Below are positions 1 to 10,705 of a stretch of DNA of 10,705 nt, piece by piece. Every line of letters begins with the position of its first letter. Positions within the stretch are counted from its first letter, which is position 1. The position numbers were made by a program, and so were the translations under genes. Source of the DNA: an uncultured Clostridia bacterium (GTDB taxonomy: Bacteria > Bacillota > Clostridia > UBA1381). The DNA is taken from assembly GCA_945948775.1 (NCBI GenBank), contig CAMFCK010000009.1, positions 1 to 10,705 on the forward strand. The letters run 5' to 3'. The notes beneath the pieces are model-generated. The model saw only the letters and a list, made by a program, of their open reading frames with translations, was not told the DNA's origin and did not search any database.

Positions 1-70
1 CTATATGCGCCAGCACTCTATCCGGTCCCCAAATATACTGATGCGTAGGATACATTACAATTTTCTGCTC
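1..70 (-). repeat. Direct repeat copy 1 of rhs core segment
   Basis: Bases 1-70 match 1485-1554 at 68 of 70 positions, same orientation. The two differences (positions 56 and 62) are third-codon changes that leave Val and Lys unchanged. Identity stops sharply after base 70. The repeat probably continues beyond base 1, so its true length cannot be seen. Confidence 0.95.
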
Positions 71-615: not shown

Positions 616-3600
616 CTATGCGTCATCTCTAATTTTGACAATAACAACTACCTCTGTGCCTTTTACATACTTACCATTTACATAAGATAATACATGAGTC
701 GACAAAGCTTCATCATTCCTGGAGCCTGAATGTGCATTATAATAAATATCTCCATCTCTTATGCTTGTAATAATCGCCGCATGATGAGGAGAATTACCAT
801 CCGCTCCGCAGAAGTATATTAAATCGCCTTCCTGAATCCCCTGATATTCTATCGCGTTTTTCAATCCTACATGCGACCAGATTTGTATTGTTCCACTGGT
901 GTATCCTTTACTCGAATCACTAAATATTTGATATTGATCCAAAGCAACCGTCCATGATCTTGAATACGAACCAATCATTCTGTTATAGACTCCTAAAGCG
1001 ACATTCATATACCAATCATCACTTTGATGCAACAATCCAGCTCGTAAACAATTTGAAACAAAATGCGCACAGTCGCCATTCTTTAAATACACATCTTCTG
1101 TTGCATATGCTCTCTTACTATAATATGTATTGGCATAATTCACCGCCATTTTTCGGTCATACAACCCAGTAGGATCAACAGCGTTAACCGGATTGTTCCC
1201 ACAATACACATACCAGTTATATCCATCCTCTGCCGGGTCTTGCTGGGTAAAACGTCCGGCGGTCGGATCGTAGTATCTCGCTCTTAAATAATAAAGTCCG
1301 GTTGTTTCATCATAGGTCTGTCCGAAATAGGTAAACGGATTATACACCGTTTCTTCCTTCTTTATAAAGTTTCCCCAGACATCATAATCATAGCTGTTCT
1401 TGACATTTCCGGCAGTATCTACCACTTGCACAACATCGCCGTGACCGTTATACAGATAGTAATATGACTGACCTGCCAAAAAGTCTATATGCGCCAGCAC
1501 TCTATCCGGTCCCCAAATATACTGATGCGTAGGATACATAACAATCTTCTGCTCCGAATCTATCGTCGCCCAAATAAGCTCCGCCTCTGCTGTCAGTCTG
1601 CCGTTTTGGTCATAGATACAATATGTCGGCATATCAGAGTTTTCACGCTTTACAAACCTATATCCGCTTGCAGAATAGCCGAACCTTGAAAGTTCTTCGC
1701 CGACATGAGCTGTGGACAGATTATTGTCTAAATCATAACTGTATGCTGCGTTTTCCTCTGCCAGAAAATCAATCTGCTCAAAATTTGCTTTTCTGTTGCC
1801 TCTGCAGTCATACTCATAATAGGAGTCAGCCCCTTTATCACCTGACACACTTGCAATTCTGTTCAGTTTATCATAAGTGAAGGATGTACTGTTTTGCTGA
1901 TTTCCAACCGTTTCATTTATCGAAATGATATTATTGTTTTTATCATATTCATAGCTATAGCCTGACAGTACCGTGCTGCCCTTTGTATTCTGCAGGGTTT
2001 TCAACCTTGAAAGCCCGTCATATGTATATTCAGATTTCAGCACAGTTCCGTCAGAAAGTGGCGGATAGGTCACCGACTTCAGCTTTCCGTCCAGATAAAA
2101 TTCATAGCTTGCATTCGCACTCTCGGAAGTATTTCTTTCACCCTGTGCTACCTGTACTCTTGAAATACGGTTTTTGTTGTATTCATAATAGTTTGCAAGC
2201 GTATACTTCTTCTCATTTACCTCATCTATACAAGAATACTCCGCCGAAGTTACATTTCCGATTTCATCATAGGTATATTTTGCCTCCGGGTAAAAGAACA
2301 CATTTTCTACGCCTGTTGCATAGAAATACTTTGAACTGTCGTTCAAAATCTTTCCTGCAGGTGAATAGTCAATAAACCTTACCTCCGACAAACTTCCGGT
2401 GTACTTGTCTGTTTCAGGGTTATATCGTGCATATGCTTTTATTGTCATTGATGCACCAAACGGTGTGATATATTGATACTGCTCATCCGAAATCGCCGTG
2501 CCAATCTTTGTTATATAGTTTCTGTCTTGTACTCCATCTTCATTAAATTCTGCATACAGAAATTGTCCGTTTTTATCCTTTGCTGCTTCAAGCTGTCCCA
2601 AAGCGTTATATGTATAAATATTACTATTTTCTGCATTATCGGTATCGGACAGTAATTTGCCTTCACCGTCATATTCCCTGCGGTACAGTATACTTTCCTC
2701 TCCGCTTGCGGAGGTAATCGTCTGTTTTGTAACATTTCCGAATATGTCATAGCTGTTTTTTATCACTTCATCATTTGCATTTTTAGAAGTGATGACACGG
2801 TTCATTTTATCGTAGGTACAGCTTACGGTGTAACCGCTGCTGCCTGTATTCCCCTTAGCATCCGTTGTTCCGATTATATTTCCGGCTATATCGTAAACAT
2901 ATTGAACCTCCGAATAGCTTTCGGGATAGCTCTCATACGCTTTTTCGCTTATTACTCTCTGCAGTCGGTCATATTTACATTCCGTGATATTCTGCTTTGC
3001 CGTCCTGTCATCTGCCGGGACAAAGTAAGACATTGCTAAAAATCCCGCCGTATCGCTGTTTTTATTATACTCGGTAATATGATAATTGTCAAACATGTCA
3101 ACTGTTTTGACTGTCCTTCCCAAATCATCGTAATACGCCTTTGTAGTGTTTCCATCCGGGTCGATTGTGGTTTTGATATTATTTACCGTGTCATAAATAT
3201 AGCTTGTTTTAAGGTATGTATAGTTCGTGCCGATCTTATCAAAGGTGTTTTCCTCTATCAGCTCGCCCGTACCGGTGTAATAGTCAATTTCATCTCCGAT
3301 ATAGTAAAGTGAACATTCAGCAAGAGCATCATCAGACGGATTATTTGCCGAAATATCCGATACATCGTAATATTTATCTGTAGTCTGCACCTCCTGCACA
3401 ATAAGTCTGAGCGTTGCATCGGTTATTCCGGCATAATCAGTATGTATTACGTTTCTGTAGCTGATGTTTTTTACCGGCAGAATACTTAGATCTTTTTCGT
3501 TGACGTTGCTGTAAGCCGAATATTTGGGATACACAATTCTTATCGGTCTTGCAAGCTCGTCATATTCATAATATGTTGTATTTCCGTTATTATCCGTTTC

Positions 3601-6168
3601 CGATGCAATCGTACCTAAAAGCATATTGTAGGTATATGTCACAGTTTGTGTCTGCGATATGTCCTCACCCGATATATTTTTACCTGTCACGGTCCTTTTA
3701 ACGGTTGTCGGATAGGCATATCCTGTTGCAGATGTATAGTTTTCCTCTGTAACAGTACTCATCGTTCCATTTGTTACAGTGGTTATTTTCTTTGATATTT
3801 TTCCGTTTCCTGCATATTCATAGCTGTAGTTTGTTGTTGTACCATCTGCCTGTGTAACCTCTTGCAGTCTTTGGTCAGAGTTATAGCGATAATACTCGGT
3901 GCATTTTGTATTCTCGTCCCGATACCACGATTTACTTTTTGCAAAGCCTGTTGTCTCATCATAGGTATAAACAACCGCATGCCTTTTTCTGTTTGTTCCG
4001 ATTACCGTATCATAATCCACCTCAGCGGTAGTAAGGGTGGGACGCCCGAAGGCTCTGTTCTGCCCGGTTTCAAATTCGTTTTGAACATATGAATCATATG
4101 AGTATTCGCTATCGTTTGAATAGGTAATCTTTGTCCGGACGGGGCGCTTGAATAAATATCCAACCACTTCACTGTTTCTGCTAAGCTGTGAACCTTCCGG
4201 TTCGGTATATGTTTCATATGTATATTTTAGAAGCGCCGCTCCGTCTGTTTTATAATAGTCGCGCGACACCTGTGACTTACTGTGTATTTCCCTTGTGCCG
4301 CAAACCTTTCTGCCCTCCTCGGCAGCTGCAATTGAGCAGTTTCTCGGATACCCTGTGTAGTCGTTAGTATATCTATATTGAATACGATTTTTTAAATATG
4401 TTTCATCTATCGTATTATTACTGTCTATCGTAAGTTCATAATCTCCGCGCTCTGTTATTCTGTACGCCTCACTGACGCCGCTGTGTCCGAGATTTCTTGT
4501 TATAATGTCATATTCATAATACGTATCGGAATGCGGTCTTACGATATTGCCGAGCAAATAAACAAGATTATTTCTTGCTCCGCTTGTGTTAATAACAAAT
4601 CCGGAGTCAAGCTTTTTATCAGCAAATGTAAACTTCACAGGATAAGCATATTTCCGCCCGTTTCCCCCTACCATGGGGTAGTAGCTCGTTGTTTCACCCA
4701 TTGTATTTGTGACGGATACCAAAACCGGTTCGGTTGAAAGTGTTTCTCCGTCCTGCAACACTTCAACCATTTTCTTTTCATATGACAGCGTCAGTTCTTT
4801 TCCGGTTTCCATTGTCGATGTTATTGTAAGAGTCAGTGTTTCGTAATCTCCCGGCTCGCTGTATGTAAATTTCCCTTTTCTTCCTACGCTGTCGGTTATG
4901 GAAGAAATCAACGGACTATTGTTTGCACCGTAGAAGTTCTTATTTGTATAGTTAAAGGTTATCTTGTTTCCAAACCTGTCAAGAATAGTCAAAAGCTCAC
5001 CGCGTGTGCCGAAATAGTATTTCTTTGAATCGGCATCGGTTACGATATAGTCAATTCTGCCGGAGGAGCTAATAGCCGAATCGTAATCGAAGTAGTCTTC
5101 AAAGATAATATCCTTGCCTATATGATTTGCAAAGGAATACTCTCCGTTCCCGTTATATTCTACCTCTATAACATTTCCCTTGCCATCATGATAATAAAGT
5201 CCCTTTGGAACTTCAGTCGCATCCGCATAGTTATTCTTTATTATCTGAACAGATGGAAATCCCCATGACCAGCCTGCACCGAGGTTATTTCTCGTTCTTT
5301 GGTAGCTTGACGATGTGATTTCAGAGGTGTAATAGTACGGGACATAAACCTCATCCCCCTCATTACAATCGCGTATTGTTGCATTATATATAAAGTTTCC
5401 ATTGTTTGTGTCGCGGCTTTCAATTTCTTCTTTTCTTAATTCAGCCTCAGACCTTTGGGCATAAGGATATCTGTATTCGCTTGTTTGTCCCGTTTCACAG
5501 TCATATACTGATTCGACCACAACATACGAATCCTCCGGCATAGTAAATGTTATAGCGTCATTATTGAGTTTTGATGTCTTTGTATATAGCTCCGCCTCTG
5601 CCAGACTGTAGTATCTTTCGAGACGAAGATCCAGCCCATCGACTCCCGGCAAAACCAGATCCGTTTCGGTTACAATCAGATTTCCCGTCAGCGGATCGAT
5701 ATATTCCTCCCCGATATCATCTCCGACAAAGCTTGTTCTTCCGGCTTGGTTCTGCAGTGCAAAAGAGTCCTTACCGTTGATATTGTTCAATCGGTACTGT
5801 GTATCACCCGCCGCTGATGCAGATCTGAGTACAGGACTTTGCGACGCTGTTCTGCCCACAATTCCGTCAGACGCCTCTGTATCCTCACGGGATATGTCAA
5901 TGGCACCCTCATCTGCCAATATTTCAGGCAATACAGCGCTGGTATATTCCGTATAATTTACTGCATTTGCCTGCGTATTTCGCATAACCTGTGCTTCTTG
6001 CGGAACTTCTTCCGCTATATCTATACTCGGAAGATTTGCATTTAAAACATCATATGAGAAATCTGTGTTGTATTCTTCTGTCAGTATAACATCCGGCTTT
6101 TCCGCCAGTGCTGTAAGCGGTGCAAAAATCATAGAAACGGTTAAAAGTATTGATATGAATTTTTTCAT
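616..6168 (-). CDS. Secreted Rhs/YD-repeat polymorphic toxin with C-terminal amidase-like tip
   Basis: An 1850-residue Rhs protein. A Sec signal peptide (MKKFISILLTVSMIFAPLTALA, likely cut after ALA, about residue 22) is followed by a low-complexity linker, then the typical Rhs N-terminal block around residues 155-190 (DPLTGNLIVTETDLVLPG, GLDLRLERYYS) and GAGWSWGFP. From about residue 385 come YD-type repeats (for example YYEYDELARPIRI, FTYDKLNRIASV), which in known structures form a hollow beta-barrel shell around the toxin. The RHS core lies at about 1567-1668 (RARYYDPTAGRF, NPVNAVDPTG). The paired aspartates D1644 and D1665 correspond to the self-cleavage motif of Rhs proteins, so release of the tip near L1669 is expected. 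The start ATG overlaps the preceding stop (TAATG) and has AGGTGA six bases upstream. No LPXTG anchor is visible. No frameshift is seen, so the gene looks intact. Confidence 0.93.
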   Translation of the reverse strand: MKKFISILLTVSMIFAPLTALAEKPDVILTEEYNTDFSYDVLNANLPSIDIAEEVPQEAQVMRNTQANAVNYTEYTSAVLPEILADEGAIDISREDTEASDGIVGRTASQSPVLRSASAAGDTQYRLNNINGKDSFALQNQAGRTSFVGDDIGEEYIDPLTGNLIVTETDLVLPGVDGLDLRLERYYSLAEAELYTKTSKLNNDAITFTMPEDSYVVVESVYDCETGQTSEYRYPYAQRSEAELRKEEIESRDTNNGNFIYNATIRDCNEGDEVYVPYYYTSEITSSSYQRTRNNLGAGWSWGFPSVQIIKNNYADATEVPKGLYYHDGKGNVIEVEYNGNGEYSFANHIGKDIIFEDYFDYDSAISSSGRIDYIVTDADSKKYYFGTRGELLTILDRFGNKITFNYTNKNFYGANNSPLISSITDSVGRKGKFTYSEPGDYETLTLTITSTMETGKELTLSYEKKMVEVLQDGETLSTEPVLVSVTNTMGETTSYYPMVGGNGRKYAYPVKFTFADKKLDSGFVINTSGARNNLVYLLGNIVRPHSDTYYEYDIITRNLGHSGVSEAYRITERGDYELTIDSNNTIDETYLKNRIQYRYTNDYTGYPRNCSIAAAEEGRKVCGTREIHSKSQVSRDYYKTDGAALLKYTYETYTEPEGSQLSRNSEVVGYLFKRPVRTKITYSNDSEYSYDSYVQNEFETGQNRAFGRPTLTTAEVDYDTVIGTNRKRHAVVYTYDETTGFAKSKSWYRDENTKCTEYYRYNSDQRLQEVTQADGTTTNYSYEYAGNGKISKKITTVTNGTMSTVTEENYTSATGYAYPTTVKRTVTGKNISGEDISQTQTVTYTYNMLLGTIASETDNNGNTTYYEYDELARPIRIVYPKYSAYSNVNEKDLSILPVKNISYRNVIHTDYAGITDATLRLIVQEVQTTDKYYDVSDISANNPSDDALAECSLYYIGDEIDYYTGTGELIEENTFDKIGTNYTYLKTSYIYDTVNNIKTTIDPDGNTTKAYYDDLGRTVKTVDMFDNYHITEYNKNSDTAGFLAMSYFVPADDRTAKQNITECKYDRLQRVISEKAYESYPESYSEVQYVYDIAGNIIGTTDAKGNTGSSGYTVSCTYDKMNRVITSKNANDEVIKNSYDIFGNVTKQTITSASGEESILYRREYDGEGKLLSDTDNAENSNIYTYNALGQLEAAKDKNGQFLYAEFNEDGVQDRNYITKIGTAISDEQYQYITPFGASMTIKAYARYNPETDKYTGSLSEVRFIDYSPAGKILNDSSKYFYATGVENVFFYPEAKYTYDEIGNVTSAEYSCIDEVNEKKYTLANYYEYNKNRISRVQVAQGERNTSESANASYEFYLDGKLKSVTYPPLSDGTVLKSEYTYDGLSRLKTLQNTKGSTVLSGYSYEYDKNNNIISINETVGNQQNSTSFTYDKLNRIASVSGDKGADSYYEYDCRGNRKANFEQIDFLAEENAAYSYDLDNNLSTAHVGEELSRFGYSASGYRFVKRENSDMPTYCIYDQNGRLTAEAELIWATIDSEQKIVMYPTHQYIWGPDRVLAHIDFLAGQSYYYLYNGHGDVVQVVDTAGNVKNSYDYDVWGNFIKKEETVYNPFTYFGQTYDETTGLYYLRARYYDPTAGRFTQQDPAEDGYNWYVYCGNNPVNAVDPTGLYDRKMAVNYANTYYSKRAYATEDVYLKNGDCAHFVSNCLRAGLLHQSDDWYMNVALGVYNRMIGSYSRSWTVALDQYQIFSDSSKGYTSGTIQIWSHVGLKNAIEYQGIQEGDLIYFCGADGNSPHHAAIITSIRDGDIYYNAHSGSRNDEALSTHVLSYVNGKYVKGTEVVVIVKIRDDA
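619..1164 (-). other. Variable C-terminal toxin tip, Amidase_6-like domain
   Basis: Residues about 1669-1850 of the Rhs protein, after DPTG. The order of landmarks matches the putative amidase domain (Amidase_6, papain/NlpC-P60-like fold): AVNYANTYY, then NGDCAHFVSNCL with the candidate nucleophile C1700, SWTVALDQY, EGDLIYF, PHHAAIITSI with candidate catalytic H1796, and IYYNAHSGS with H1813 and N1811 as possible third polar residues. Family members are thought to cleave amide bonds; a peptidoglycan substrate is plausible for a secreted Rhs effector but is not shown by the sequence. The tip is more AT-rich than the core it is fused to, as expected of an exchanged module. Domain call is fairly firm; the role as antibacterial toxin is inferred from architecture. 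Confidence 0.8.
1165..3980 (-). other. YD-repeat shell and RHS-associated core of the Rhs protein
   Basis: Residues about 730-1668. Successive degenerate units carry the pattern G-x-x-x-x-Y-x-Y-D-x-x-x-R-x-x or close variants (VQYVYDIAGNIIGTTD, YTYDGLSRLKTL, YSYDLDNNLSTA). The repetition is at protein level; at DNA level the units have diverged and do not form a simple tandem repeat. The final hundred residues form the strongly conserved core, including YNGHGDVVQVVD, DYDVWGN, GLYYLRARYYDP and NWYVYCGNNPVN. The core spells DPAE, 17 residues, DPTG, a variant of the DPxG-18-DPxG motif of Rhs proteins. Confidence 0.9.
1485..1554 (-). repeat. Direct repeat copy 2, inside the intact rhs gene
   Basis: Encodes residues about 1539-1562 of the Rhs protein and is the partner of bases 1-70 (68 of 70 identical). 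It lies about 320 bases before the core-tip junction, so recombination between the copies would carry the rest of the core and the tip with it. Confidence 0.95.
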
Positions 6169-7034
6169 TACTGCTCACCTTCTACCGTTTTGGTCAGTAA
6201 ATTCCCCATATTATCATAAGTAAAAAATATTGACTTATTGTTTGCTTTGTCTATCTGTAAAAGCCGATTATCAGCATCATAGTAATATGCATTAACTCCA
6301 TCTGTCTGATTAAAGTCAATCACCGTTTTCACCGGAAGCATACCGCTTGTGCTGTTCCAGAACATCAGCTTTGCGCTGCTTTCGTTCTCTGCGTCAAAAC
6401 GATAGAGCATGAGCGCATTGCCGCTCGCTCCCGGCTCTACGGTGATTTCTGTTTGTTTTACCTGATACAATCTTTTTTCTGCCGTATATGTTGCTAAAAC
6501 GACGCATAGGCTTCTTTCATCCTCCGAATTATTCTCCGCGCTGAATATACATTCCATATCCGCATTGTCAATGATCCTAAGACCTTTTTCTCCGACATTA
6601 ACACCATTTATTTTTATCTGTGAAGAGATTTCAAGACCGCCGCTTACATTTAGGCTGCTGCCGGAAACTCTTCGCAGATTTTTTTCGGATATATTCATAC
6701 GCTCCGCTACATTTTCGATTGCCGATGATGGTGTTATGTAAAACACCTCATTGCTGTCCCATTCCAGAATAATAGCTAAGCCGATGGTTGAGAAATCTAT
6801 ACTGCTCCACACACCTTCCTCATATCCACCAAGCGGTCCGGAATACACCGTCGTACTTGTTTCTCCAACCCTTTTTACAACATTAACCGGCAATTCTGAA
6901 TTACCGGTATTTTGTGACAGTTCTGTCGAAACGTCCCTCACCTGTGTTTTCGTATCAATGTCGCCGGCATAAGCTGTAATAGCCATCATTTCAATCGCCA
7001 GCAATGCTGACATTATCTTTTGTATTTTTTTCAT
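6168..7034 (-). CDS. Secreted protein with beta-sandwich-like region and a terminal YD repeat
   Basis: A 288-residue protein with a Sec signal peptide (KKIQKIMSALLAIEMMAITAYA, likely cut after AYA). The middle region ends with ALMLYRF...AKLMFWNSTSGMLPV, resembling a repeated motif (L-W-D-S-L-x-x-M-x-P-L) that I know from surface proteins of Clostridia; this is a similarity judged by eye. The last 40 residues (NAYYYDADNRLLQIDK, FFTYDNMGNLLTKTV) form about one and a half YD repeats. I chose the ATG at 7034 because AAGGAG lies seven bases upstream; another in-frame ATG at 7040 is too close to that site, and a TTG farther upstream at 7100 lies inside the terminator hairpin. The stop overlaps the next start by one base (TAATG), so translation is coupled to the Rhs protein. 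It may be a partner or plug for the Rhs shell, or a split-off N-terminal piece; function unknown. Confidence 0.85.
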   Translation of the reverse strand: MKKIQKIMSALLAIEMMAITAYAGDIDTKTQVRDVSTELSQNTGNSELPVNVVKRVGETSTTVYSGPLGGYEEGVWSSIDFSTIGLAIILEWDSNEVFYITPSSAIENVAERMNISEKNLRRVSGSSLNVSGGLEISSQIKINGVNVGEKGLRIIDNADMECIFSAENNSEDERSLCVVLATYTAEKRLYQVKQTEITVEPGASGNALMLYRFDAENESSAKLMFWNSTSGMLPVKTVIDFNQTDGVNAYYYDADNRLLQIDKANNKSIFFTYDNMGNLLTKTVEGEQ

Positions 7035-7041
7035 ATTCATT

Positions 7042-7047
7042 CTCCTT
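7042..7047 (-). promoter_or_regulatory. Ribosome-binding site deciding the start at 7034
   Basis: AAGGAG with seven bases before ATG at 7034. It sits too close (one base) to the ATG at 7040 for efficient use, which favours the shorter protein starting MKKIQK. Confidence 0.8.
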
Positions 7048-7050
7048 GTA

Positions 7051-7074
7051 TTTTTTGTTTGCACAAACAAAAAA
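7051..7074 (-). promoter_or_regulatory. AU-rich palindrome directly before the ribosome site
   Basis: Two perfect 11-base arms (TTTTTTGTTTG and CAAACAAAAAA) around a two-base centre. It begins within the U-run of the terminator at 7069-7129 and ends three bases before the AAGGAG of the next gene. In RNA its A-run could pair with the terminator's U-run; in DNA it could be an operator. Only the symmetry is certain. Confidence 0.5.
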
Positions 7075-7129
7075 AAGAGGACAAAACCAAAGACTTGCAA
7101 AATACTTTACAAGCTCCGATCTTGTCCTC
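7069..7129 (-). terminator. Intrinsic terminator (probable attenuator) in the leader of the Rhs operon
   Basis: On the minus strand GAGGACAAGA pairs with TTTTGTCCTC (ten pairs, one G-U) at 7120-7129 and 7077-7086. Within the loop CTTGTAAA pairs with TTTGCAAG around a GTAT tetraloop. Eight T residues follow at once (7076-7069). It lies downstream of the promoter at 7191-7219 and upstream of the structural genes, so it must be read through for the Rhs operon to be expressed. The first stem base coincides with the last codon positions of the leader ORF, which is the geometry of ribosome-mediated attenuation. It would also stop readthrough from the conjugation operon upstream. Confidence 0.85.
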
Positions 7130-7481: not shown

Positions 7482-8360
7482 TCAGTGCATCTTTCTCAAA
7501 ATCTTGCCGTAAACCAGTTTTTTGTCCGTGTTGTATTTTGTAATCACGATCTCAACCGTATCGTCTGTCTTGTAGTCTCCGTCATACTGCATTGATTCAT
7601 AAGAACACAGAACATCGGTGATATTATCATAAAGCCGACAAAACCCGCCTCCGCCGTATTTACCGATGATTTTTGCAATCCGCGTTGAATGCAGCGGATG
7701 CCTCGTTTCAATACCGTCAAACGGATGCGGCGTTGTTTCCTTTACGGACAGCTTCAATATCTTTTCCCCGGGATTAAATTCCTTAACCACCGCTCTTTTT
7801 GTTTCCCCCGGTTTCATTGCCATGCGCAGATCCGGAACGAGGCTGTAGCTGATGTCGCGCTGGGGCAGCATAACGTCATAGCCGCCGAAATTGACCGTAC
7901 AGACGTTTTTGCCCACCGATACAACATCAACATTGACCGTTTTGCCCTCCAATCCTTCCCGTCTGTCGGTCAGCTTTTGCATTTTTTCAAGCGCAAGCTT
8001 TCTCGATGCTACGGCAAATCCTGCCTCACGGTCAATATGCGTTACGACAAACGGTATGTTTGCACCGCACATTGAATGCAGAATATGATAACCGCTGTCA
8101 AGCTCCAATGCAAAAACCTCTGTTTCCGGGATGATGATTTTAACCCTGTACTTAATAACGATCAGACAGCGCACAGTCTGCGGTACTGCCTTCCGCTTGC
8201 CTTTCGGCACAATATTAAATTCGTGAATATCCACGCCCGCAACTCTTCCGCTCATTACCGACGTACTTTTGAAGGAGGCATAAATTGCCTGCCATTCTTC
8301 TTTTTCCGCCGCAGTTAGATCCCTGTCCATTTCCGCCAGATTCAAATCCTTAAACTCCAT
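7482..8360 (-). CDS. S1-type RNA-binding protein of a conjugative element
   Basis: A 292-residue protein that looks like a chain of OB-fold S1 repeats. The clearest is residues about 138-208 (GKTVNVDVVSVGKN...ILKLSVKE), with a degenerate one at about 33-125 (MSGRVAGVDIHEFNIV...FAVASRKLALEKM) and another at about 225-292 (STRIAKIIGKYGGGGF...LVYGKILRKM). The segment FAVASRKLALEKM mimics the end of S1 repeats in ribosomal protein S1. Ribosomal S1 itself is longer and made of regular repeats, so this is a dedicated paralogue rather than rpsA. Such genes occur beside replication initiators in Tn1549-like elements; their role is not known to me, and binding RNA or single-stranded DNA is an inference. 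AAGGAGG eight bases before ATG supports the start, and it lies over the end of the preceding gene, indicating coupling. Confidence 0.8.
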   Translation of the reverse strand: MEFKDLNLAEMDRDLTAAEKEEWQAIYASFKSTSVMSGRVAGVDIHEFNIVPKGKRKAVPQTVRCLIVIKYRVKIIIPETEVFALELDSGYHILHSMCGANIPFVVTHIDREAGFAVASRKLALEKMQKLTDRREGLEGKTVNVDVVSVGKNVCTVNFGGYDVMLPQRDISYSLVPDLRMAMKPGETKRAVVKEFNPGEKILKLSVKETTPHPFDGIETRHPLHSTRIAKIIGKYGGGGFCRLYDNITDVLCSYESMQYDGDYKTDDTVEIVITKYNTDKKLVYGKILRKMH

Positions 8361-8373
8361 ATTTTTTTCCTCC

Positions 8374-8895
8374 TTACCTTTTGAAAAATTGTGTGCCCTG
8401 TCCTGTCACCATTGCGAATTTGCAGTTGCAGGACGTTTTGATTTTACTTATCTGCTCCTTTTCGTCCACAAGAAAAATTACCACCTCACACTTGTCGTCT
8501 GTAAATTTATCGTCCGCATAATCCGATACCGCCTTTTCATCTCCCTGCTTTACCGGAATAATGCATATGTTCTTGTCATGCTCCGTGCCCGGAACAATGA
8601 ATCTGATTGCCGCATAACCCTTTGCCCGATAATGACGCACATTCTCCGATAAAAAGCTTAACAGTACCTCAAATGAACGAATTACATCATAGTCCGGCTG
8701 TATCCCCTCATACATGACCACCTCACCACAGAGTTTAAAATCACCGAACCGGCTCATCTGCAAAAGGTACGCGTCAAGACTTTCAAACTTAGATCTAAAC
8801 TGTATATTTACCGCTCTTAATAACTGTTTTTTTGTAAGTGCGCCGTATTCGCAGAGCAACTCTTTTATGTACCGCTGATATGGGTTATAGAACAT
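8374..8895 (-). CDS. DUF5697-like protein of a conjugative element
   Basis: A 173-residue protein from my chosen start. The N-terminal part (YIKELLCEYGALTKKQLLRAV, about residues 9-29) reads like a winged-helix recognition region; the rest alternates strands and helices (YAAIRFIVPG, CEVVIFLVDEKEQI). It resembles the DUF5697 family found in Tn1549-like elements, by recall of the pattern. The ATG at 8895 has GGGAGG seven bases upstream; an in-frame ATG at 8913 overlaps the stop of the replication gene (ATGA) but lacks a clear ribosome site, and would add six residues (MKGGRK). The stop lies within the ribosome site of the S1-domain gene. No enzymatic motif is visible. Possible role in element maintenance or regulation, unproven. 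Confidence 0.75.
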   Translation of the reverse strand: MFYNPYQRYIKELLCEYGALTKKQLLRAVNIQFRSKFESLDAYLLQMSRFGDFKLCGEVVMYEGIQPDYDVIRSFEVLLSFLSENVRHYRAKGYAAIRFIVPGTEHDKNICIIPVKQGDEKAVSDYADDKFTDDKCEVVIFLVDEKEQISKIKTSCNCKFAMVTGQGTQFFKR

Positions 8896-8902
8896 TTTGC
8901 GT

Positions 8903-8908
8903 CCTCCC
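8903..8908 (-). promoter_or_regulatory. Ribosome-binding site favouring the start at 8895
   Basis: GGGAGG seven bases before the ATG at 8895. Because this motif itself encodes the Gly-Gly of the longer reading MKGGRK, the longer start at 8913 is probably an artefact of the ATGA overlap. Confidence 0.65.
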
Positions 8909-8909
8909 T

Positions 8910-9890
8910 TCATTCGTTTTTTCTAAGACTGTTTAAGAACGGATCCACCGCCGCCACCGTAAAATCCTCTGCTATGCAGTTGAAAATCGTACTCATAACA
9001 TACCTCTGATAATTCCTTATCGGTTTATTGTTTTTATGCAGATTTGCCATTGCGCTTTCAAGCGTTCCGGCGTTAATTTCATACATACGGCTGCGGATTT
9101 TCCCCTGCGGATATACTGCATTCCCCACGCGCAGGGTTTCACTGTAATACATCCGCTCTAGAGCATCATACAAGATCCTTTGCTCATCCTCCGGGAATGT
9201 GTCAAGCTGACAATTAGCTGTTATCTCCTCCAGACTGTAATTACCGTCAGTCAGTCTGTATTTACGTTCACTATGATTGACAGACTGACTGGTATCATGT
9301 TGATTTATATTATTCTGGTTTATATAAGTATGATTAGCATGCGGTTCTGGCATATCAAAAACTTCCAATACGGCAGGTTCAGAAGTTCCATTTGGGCATA
9401 TCTTTATCTTCCCGTTTTGCATATCACACAGCATTCTTTCTTCGTAAGATATGCCGTTTTGGAATGTCTTGTTTTTCTCTTCCTGAACTTCTGTTTTGGC
9501 ATATCTTGTTTTTTCAATCTCAGAAAAATCTTTTGCTCTTTTTACCGAAGTCTTCGGCTTAACTATGTATATCCTATTCGGAAAGCCTCTGCCGCAGCGT
9601 GTTTCACTTATTAGCTCCGCCCCAAGTAGTTCCTTAAACGCAGCAATTGCTTTTTTATACGTTATCCCCAACTCCTCAGCAATTTCTTCTCTGGTATATA
9701 TAAGGTATACCTCATCCTTATCATTAATCCAACCGTTCAATTTGGAAAGAGAAAGCCTGTCATACAGCAGTGCAAAGGTCAGCTTTGCATCAGATGACAG
9801 TATCTTGTATTTTTCATTTGCAAACATGCTTTTGGGAATTTTCAGAAATTCACAGTTTATTACATCATTTATCTTGTACACTTCATTCAT
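8910..9890 (-). CDS. Replication initiator, RepA_N family
   Basis: A 326-residue protein. Residues about 13-113 match the RepA_N domain: FLKIPKSMF, LSSDAKLTFALLYDRLSLS, WINDKDEVYLIYTREEIAEELGIT and FPNRIYIVKP, with the DNA-binding helix-turn-helix at about 65-90. A polar linker (114-205, rich in Asn and His near NQNNINQ) leads to a C-terminal helical domain at 218-320 (EEITANCQLDTF, RNYQRYVMSTIFN) like the DUF6017 type seen in initiators of conjugative elements. Such proteins start replication of plasmids or of the excised circular form of an element. GAGGAGG seven bases before ATG fixes the start. It begins 18 bases after the coupling-protein gene and overlaps the next frame's ATGA, so it is part of the same operon. 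No replication origin repeats are visible within or near it. Confidence 0.9.
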   Translation of the reverse strand: MNEVYKINDVINCEFLKIPKSMFANEKYKILSSDAKLTFALLYDRLSLSKLNGWINDKDEVYLIYTREEIAEELGITYKKAIAAFKELLGAELISETRCGRGFPNRIYIVKPKTSVKRAKDFSEIEKTRYAKTEVQEEKNKTFQNGISYEERMLCDMQNGKIKICPNGTSEPAVLEVFDMPEPHANHTYINQNNINQHDTSQSVNHSERKYRLTDGNYSLEEITANCQLDTFPEDEQRILYDALERMYYSETLRVGNAVYPQGKIRSRMYEINAGTLESAMANLHKNNKPIRNYQRYVMSTIFNCIAEDFTVAAVDPFLNSLRKNE

Positions 9891-9908: not shown

Positions 9909-10705
9909 TTATTCATTTAATATATCCTCTGCTGTACAGCTTTCCGGATCAAAAACCGTTTCATCAAAAGAGATTTGAAGCGGTTGATGTGGCATTATGG
10001 TCTCCGGACTTTCTTCTTCGGATTCCGGTATTACGACTGTACCGAAGTTCGGCTTAGGCGGCGTGTATGCCCCTGCTGCCTCCTTGCTCTCATGCTCTTG
10101 CTTTTGTACCTCTTCCTCCTGACGCCATTTGGGGATATAATCACTGATACGTGTATACTCCAATTCCTTAAATGCTGAGATCTCCTCCGGTATTATCTTA
10201 TATGCCTTTACTGGCTTTTGCCCTCGTATTAACAGCAGGCACTCCCTGTTATCCAGCTGCAAAACCTCCTCAGGGTACATAAGTGGACGCATTGTGTTTG
10301 ATTTTGTCTGTCTGTAGCCTGTAACTTCTCTTGTGATCGGCGAAAACAACGGCGTCTGCGGTGACATACTGTTTGTCAGCCGTATCGTCACATTTCCGCA
10401 GCGCTTTGAAATAAACTCGCTCGTCATGGTATCGTTACAGCCTAAAAACAGCTGTGTATCACAGTTACCGACAATCTCCTCCCATTCCTTTACCGGATAC
10501 CTGTCGGCAAGCTGAGCTATACTCTGTATAATGACATGACAGTTTATGCCGTATGAGCGCACAACCGATATGGTTTTCTTAAAATCCAACAGCTTTCCGC
10601 AGTTGCAAAATTCGTCCATAACAAAGTTCACCGGAACGGGCAGTCTTCCCCTTTCATCGCCATGCTTTCGCGCAAAGTCGGTAAGTCTTTTAAACAGCAG
10701 CGAAA
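9909..10705 (-). CDS. VirD4/TraG-type conjugative coupling ATPase, C-terminal part
   Basis: About 264 residues, open to the right edge; the full protein in this family is about 600 residues, so the Walker A part is outside. The Walker B region is VNFVMDEFCNCG near 10595-10631, followed by ISVVRSYGINCHVIIQSIAQL, GNCDTQLFLGCND and FISKRCG, which are features of the TraG/TraM-recognition C-terminal domain. RECLLLIRGQKPVKAYKI closes the ATPase fold, and the last 80 residues are a charged, flexible tail. The protein couples the relaxase-DNA complex to the mating channel at the membrane. An internal GTG at 10631 is not a start; translation is open across it. It heads the visible operon and shows that the region belongs to a conjugative element. 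Confidence 0.92.
   Translation of the reverse strand, partial: SLLFKRLTDFARKHGDERGRLPVPVNFVMDEFCNCGKLLDFKKTISVVRSYGINCHVIIQSIAQLADRYPVKEWEEIVGNCDTQLFLGCNDTMTSEFISKRCGNVTIRLTNSMSPQTPLFSPITREVTGYRQTKSNTMRPLMYPEEVLQLDNRECLLLIRGQKPVKAYKIIPEEISAFKELEYTRISDYIPKWRQEEEVQKQEHESKEAAGAYTPPKPNFGTVVIPESEEESPETIMPHQPLQISFDETVFDPESCTAEDILNE

Follow-up and report, generated by a model that had tools for sequence, protein, structure and literature searches.

Bases 1-70 of the DNA analysed here most probably open a reserve cassette for a toxin and its antidote, which seems to be silent and lies behind an Rhs weapon gene on a mobile element. The reading favoured with good confidence is that an orphan Rhs tip has its 5' end in these bases, with a core stub, a second toxin tip and its own immunity gene placed directly behind the main rhs/immunity pair within the cargo of a conjugative element, and that contig C109, from the same genome, is the most probable candidate for the missing left flank.

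The window, i.e., the whole stretch of DNA that was analysed, has 10,705 bases and is an entire contig (C9), and its base 1 is an assembly end. The source assembly consists of 273 contigs and is 58.5% complete. Since the window is a whole contig of a fragmented genome, the sequence left of base 1 could not be read directly. The genes described in the window are all on the minus strand, and its features are the following:

1-70, minus: displaced rhs core fragment, the 5' end of a presumed orphan tip frame that runs off the contig (68/70 against 1485-1554)
71-181, minus: spacer separating the orphan core from the candidate immunity gene (minus strand translated in three frames)
182-607, minus: 141-aa candidate immunity gene for the attached tip, starting 8 nt past the tip stop; its product has an N-terminal hydrophobic stretch
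616-6168, minus: full-length (main) rhs gene, 1850 aa (PF05593, PF20148, PF12671; TIGR03696)
616-1164, minus: attached C-terminal tip with Amidase_6 (PF12671, E 3.6e-13, residues 1670-1823 of 1850)
1165-1554, minus: rhs core end of the main gene (TIGR03696 Rhs_assc_core, residues 1595-1669)
6168-7100, minus: upstream partner gene with one YD/RHS-like repeat at its end, overlapping the rhs start (homologues)
7482-8360, minus: element backbone gene, part of which resembles ribosomal protein S1 far below curated cut-offs
8374-8913, minus: DUF5697 backbone gene (PF18954)
8910-9890, minus: RepA_N replication initiator (PF06970, E 1.6e-20)
9909-10703, minus: conjugative coupling protein, C-terminal part, running off the contig (PF02534, PF12696)

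Analysis of the main rhs product revealed YD repeats, an Rhs-associated core and a variable C-terminal domain, as in a full-length Rhs protein, and solved Rhs structures matched it, e.g., at residues 1379-1668. The product of the candidate immunity gene (182-607; P0002) showed no Pfam family, and a search of 95 genomes of the order returned two with a match, its own included; the one homologue in the 94 other genomes is weak (31%). NCBIfam matches to this protein and to the C109 lipoprotein described below were far below cut-offs and were set aside. The upstream partner gene is conserved, with homologues upstream of rhs in genomes G002, SUG1531 and RGIG4708, and its product has one YD-like repeat at its end and, by eye, a hydrophobic N-terminus. 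For the assembled 58% of the genome, another full-length rhs gene was considered and rejected, all six RHS_repeat matches being on C9; the missing 42% may hold one. When the Rhs protein minus its tip was used as query, two matches were obtained, both on C9; this search missed the short core stub of C109 and is therefore weak for short pieces.

The comparison of bases 1-70 with 1485-1554 in the main core confirmed the repeat reported by the first-pass annotation: 68 of 70 positions are equal, in the same orientation, while the best ungapped match of 200 shuffled 70-mers (plain letter shuffles) against the rest of the window reached 38/70. Identity is unbroken over the first 55 bases, the only mismatches are at 56 and 62, and the likeness ends at base 70. 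On the minus strand, the copy is translated as EQKIVMYPTHQYIWGPDRVLAHI, and the rhs gene at 616-6168 has these core residues in unchanged order. The position given by that annotation was also correct, the copy being downstream of both the Amidase_6 tip and the small gene at 182-607. The core stub expected of an orphan module is thus present, homologous to the main rhs gene, downstream of it and in the same orientation. Bases 3-69 were identical (67/67) to an orphan core of SUG1531 (contig JAQXUJ010000092.1, locus L078, 1480-1546), which carries both of the orphan-specific bases, 56 and 62; a second SUG1531 core (L078 3787) has one of the two.

Minus-strand three-frame translation of the spacer revealed that the frame is closed by a stop at 110-112 and that none of ATG, GTG and TTG occurs in frame between that stop and base 70, leaving an ATG within the core (55-53) as the remaining possible start. 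Lacking its own start codon before the core, the orphan should be silent. Against the other fetched loci, the spacer gave no match beyond one 14-base hit (E 0.53).

Contig C109 (4,500 bases) has core at its right end, oriented as in the window, and was the sole contig besides C9 with core, according to a DNA search and a 25-base core pattern with up to three mismatches. Its minus-strand frame 3946-4500 leaves the contig end with PAEDGYNWYVYGNQNPVMYVDESGEEG and continues into a tip, so that the module consists of a core stub, an NPVMYVDESG junction, a 160-residue tip (tip 2) and, 4 bases on, a lipoprotein gene, after which a helicase gene comes next. Both tip 2 and its partner are intact open frames. 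Tip 2 shares 27 of 151 aligned residues with the attached tip of the window (tip 1) in a global alignment; it showed no Pfam family at E ≤0.1, solved-structure matches only at E 0.72 or worse, and no plasmid match. Its partner is a lipoprotein of 137 aa matching DUF3997 (E 5.1e-5) with 23.9 bits, the cut-off being 25. The first-pass annotation had placed a second toxin-immunity pair immediately left of the window, and the parts of such a pair, i.e., core, a DPxG-like motif, an unlike tip after the stub and a small gene after the tip, were all seen on C109, whose join to C9 is proposed on the basis of synteny. The interpretation given by that annotation is in this sense supported.

In G002, a genome of the same genus, a single contig holds on its minus strand the coupling protein, RepA_N, DUF5697, the 7482-8360-type gene, the C109-type helicase (63% identical), the partner gene and rhs. 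In G028, of the same order, the 7482-8360-type gene likewise precedes the helicase, about 1.5 kb apart and on the same strand. As both relatives have the helicase downstream of the backbone genes and in the same strand orientation, C109 is likely the left flank of C9. C9 holds sequence beyond the 7482-8360 gene and the right end of C109 lies upstream of the helicase, which fits an order of 7482-8360 gene, rhs cargo and helicase. The position of the cargo is not conserved, since rhs of G002 is about 8 kb downstream of the helicase and not between the two genes; in G016 the helicase is present and the other window proteins had no match in the 20 kb fetched. If C109 stands left of C9, the gap would be the equivalent of window 1237-1484 (248 bases of core): within the main core, the end of C109 matches 1204-1236 exactly and bases 1-70 repeat 1485-1554, and the stretch between 1236 and 1485 is presumably common to the orphan too and unassembled there. 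A 113-base stretch of C109 (L005 2980-3092) lies upstream of the helicase and looks by eye like a terminator; SUG1531 has it again in contig C54, as part of a 75% match, and in C4 (88%), and it may be an element-wide repeat.

Orphan modules were also found in relatives. A single contig of G036 (C21) carries a main gene followed by two orphan modules, and two contigs of G011 hold three (C48) and two (C47) tip modules, the first of each running off the contig start. L078 of SUG1531 holds two modules of a tip with its partner; the contig end interrupts the core of the first, and the tip of the second is short (79 residues). A further core leaves the contig at the opposite end, and one core piece (2656-2892; rhs residues 1178-1256) stands isolated. 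Compared with the main core of the window, the three core-end stretches of L078 show 95.5-97.4% identity. From this core identity, L078 would belong to the SUG1531 copy of the element, the backbone of which is on other contigs. The first and last 136 bases of L078 (1-136 and 3813-3948) are identical, which would fit either a tandem array that was collapsed or a circle of about 3.8 kb. Another rhs gene of SUG1531 (L075, JAQXUJ010000207.1, 1384-6864) has a tip that, by eye, we take to resemble a lytic transglycosylase; downstream of it is a HEAT-like gene, also judged by eye, which recurs in L078 (74.5% DNA identity). In G009, six contigs (C9, C15, C56, C59, C76 and C83) end inside or at rhs core; five of them carry tips that look different by eye, and the sixth has an almost full-length gene. 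No second core was found in the fetched part of the G002 contig (5000-61235), and the viral collection gave one distant Rhs locus (40%).

A candidate for a swapped tip, which the first-pass annotation had proposed to look for in related strains, was found. One tip (tip A) is an orphan in SUG1531 and the tip of a full-length rhs gene in MB2.42 (JAHAZB010000017.1, contig C119 of G002). The two agree in 144 of 153 residues after the junction and in 79 of 98 in the preceding core, with 160 of 201 in the partner protein; at the DNA level the identities are 74% (core), 87% (tip) and 83% (partner gene). In 60-base steps the core shows 77-83%, except for 55% in the first, edge step, and the tip 80-92%, so the 74% core figure is lowered by a single edge step; at the protein level, the partner (80%) does not exceed the core (81%) in identity. 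Taken on its own, tip A accordingly gives a modest mosaic signal. The SUG1531 core that carries tip A is identical in 96 of 98 residues to the window core, which bears a different tip. Near-identical cores thus bear different tips, and a near-identical tip is found on a different core and in a different position. Made between genomes, these comparisons support an exchange of tips between main and orphan position, of which the products, rather than the event or its direction, are seen. Tip 2 was searched in 95 genomes of the order and in 391 of the class, with two genomes matching in each set, its own included. G009 contig C83 has counterparts of both tip 2 (57%) and its lipoprotein (54%), placed together after another core. 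In G220, a frame of 2057 residues with Rhs-type repeats ends in a distant relative of tip 2 (29%). That frame is followed by an ORF with a lipobox-like start, as judged by eye.

According to the proposed mechanism, the orphan would be a core stub fused to a second candidate toxin tip, with its own candidate immunity gene alongside, and would be silent in place. Homologous recombination across the shared core stretches would join the new tip to the main gene, and its insertion would displace the old tip to the orphan position. We infer the C9-C109 join, the silence, the toxicity, the immunity and the recombination step. A possible but rather doubtful alternative is that the orphan is real and an inert relic of an old displacement, which never recombined back and whose immunity gene, if anything, is kept against siblings. 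The absence of an in-frame start ahead of the core agrees with such a relic, and the isolated core piece and the 79-residue tip of L078 are what decay would give. Yet tip 2 and its partner are still intact, tip A is found, at high identity, as an attached tip in one genome and as an orphan in a second, and re-use has been reported in Salmonella (Koskiniemi 2014, PMC3967940).

It is unlikely that C109 is not the left flank and that its tip comes from a different rhs locus, or from another strain's version of the locus in the bin. The C109 core end is closer to the L078 orphan core (93.7%, 63 bp) than to the main core (88% over 52 bp, exact only in the last 33 bp), the bin is incomplete, and contigs of mobile elements can be mis-binned, all of which would suit a separate origin. 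On the other hand, the helicase region of C109 is 97.3% identical to SUG1531 (2,251 bases), which parallels the 97.65% of the C9 backbone (2,638 bases) to the same genome; the six RHS_repeat matches of the bin are all on C9, with a second main gene unseen; and the ends of C109 and C9 face each other in the order and strand expected from synteny. An assembly artefact at the contig end is very improbable: the copy lies exactly at the contig edge and its first 55 bases are identical to the main core, like a k-mer overlap, but a true repeat gives such a contig end too (10 of the 23 modules in the scanned loci likewise leave their contig inside core), 13 of 15 bases match past the identical run, both substitutions occur in another genome's orphan core, and the copy leads into unique sequence.

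Returning to the orphan as a tip reservoir, its surroundings point to a mobile carrier. The RepA_N gene, the coupling-protein part and the other genes upstream of rhs indicate a conjugative element. The RepA_N protein gave distant plasmid RepA matches, all below 60% identity. The homologous G002 contig (10 proteins scanned, eight with a Pfam family) encodes a whole coupling protein and TrbL, and the window and this contig taken together thus provide a replication initiator, a coupling protein and type IV secretion parts. The rhs cargo therefore appears, from gene content, to be carried on a conjugative-type element, for which a plasmid and an integrated form are alike possible. While the backbone and the helicase region are 97-98% identical to SUG1531, rpoB is 76.3% identical over 2,243 bases, and the SUG1531 array bears tips different from those of this genome. 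The element has thus probably moved recently between distinct lineages, mis-binning in either genome being a further possibility.

The genes that follow the tips were compared across modules. Of 18 loci scanned for the core-end motif, L076 had none, and the remaining 17 gave 23 modules, 21 of which have a next gene (G007 and G017 are without). Eleven frames were flagged as running off, one of which (G006:C44) was cut by the fetched stretch and not by the contig, so that 10 were counted. N-terminally hydrophobic proteins, defined by a mean hydropathy of ≥1.8 over the N-terminal 17-residue stretch, are encoded by 17 of the 21 genes after tips, compared to 14 of 57 control ORFs (100-220 aa, on 11 loci, two of which hold modules, so that a few partner genes may be included). 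The Fisher test (p 9e-6) is a guide only, as several modules share one genome and are not independent. Among the four genes that miss the threshold, three, from G002 and L078, code for partners of about 200 aa, and the fourth (G011:C48, 4801) is probably a mis-picked internal start, its longer frame beginning with a hydrophobic stretch. These partners suggest that many of the tips act at the cell envelope. Gram-positive Rhs/WapA toxins are usually associated with cytoplasmic nucleases, and the hydrophobic partners hint at envelope toxins instead.

Orphan modules as such are of a known kind. The proposed arrangement resembles the orphan rhs-CT/rhsI modules of Enterobacteriaceae, in which a displaced core stub, a tip and an immunity gene lie downstream of the main rhs gene, usually without a translation start, as here (PMC3967940). 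Fusion of a main and an orphan rhs gene has been reported in Salmonella LT2, where the two genes share 522 bp at 95% identity (Koskiniemi 2014, PMC3967940), compared to the at least 70 bp seen here. Unlike those orphans, the present one is from an uncultured Clostridia genome, is beside RepA_N and type IV secretion coupling genes, and belongs to a set of modules with mostly hydrophobic partners (17/21). C-terminal displacement and arrays of dissociated tips were described by Jackson 2009 (PMC2935791) in Enterobacteriaceae, with exchange confined to one rhs clade and a Salmonella rhs gene housed in a mobile element. As in those arrays, core stubs are alike within a locus and tips differ; unlike them, the array described here goes with a conjugative-type backbone that is 97-98% shared by hosts with 76% rpoB identity. 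The same study proposed an excised circular tip intermediate (PMC2935791). The SUG1531 array contig might be such an intermediate, an origin that a collapsed tandem array explains as well. A WapA/Rhs orphan of Streptococcus suis (PMC12704120) is likewise a Gram-positive Rhs orphan, without signal peptide and full core; the words 'conjugative' and 'integrative' are absent from the main text of that paper, and no array is mentioned in the sections consulted. Among the literature matches listed, no title dealt with Rhs orphan arrays on conjugative elements of Clostridia. The newer part is accordingly the place of the module on an apparently promiscuous conjugative element of uncultured Clostridia, and what deserves further attention is this mobile setting together with the hydrophobic partner proteins.

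Tentatively, the conjugative element may be viewed as a travelling, re-assortable arsenal, in which a main Rhs protein and silent, mostly envelope-acting tips with membrane-anchored immunity proteins would move between gut Clostridia and be swapped by core recombination. As assemblies break at core repeats, such tip reservoirs are probably undercounted. If this view is right, part of the weapon diversity of uncultured gut Clostridia would consist of silent cassettes on mobile DNA.
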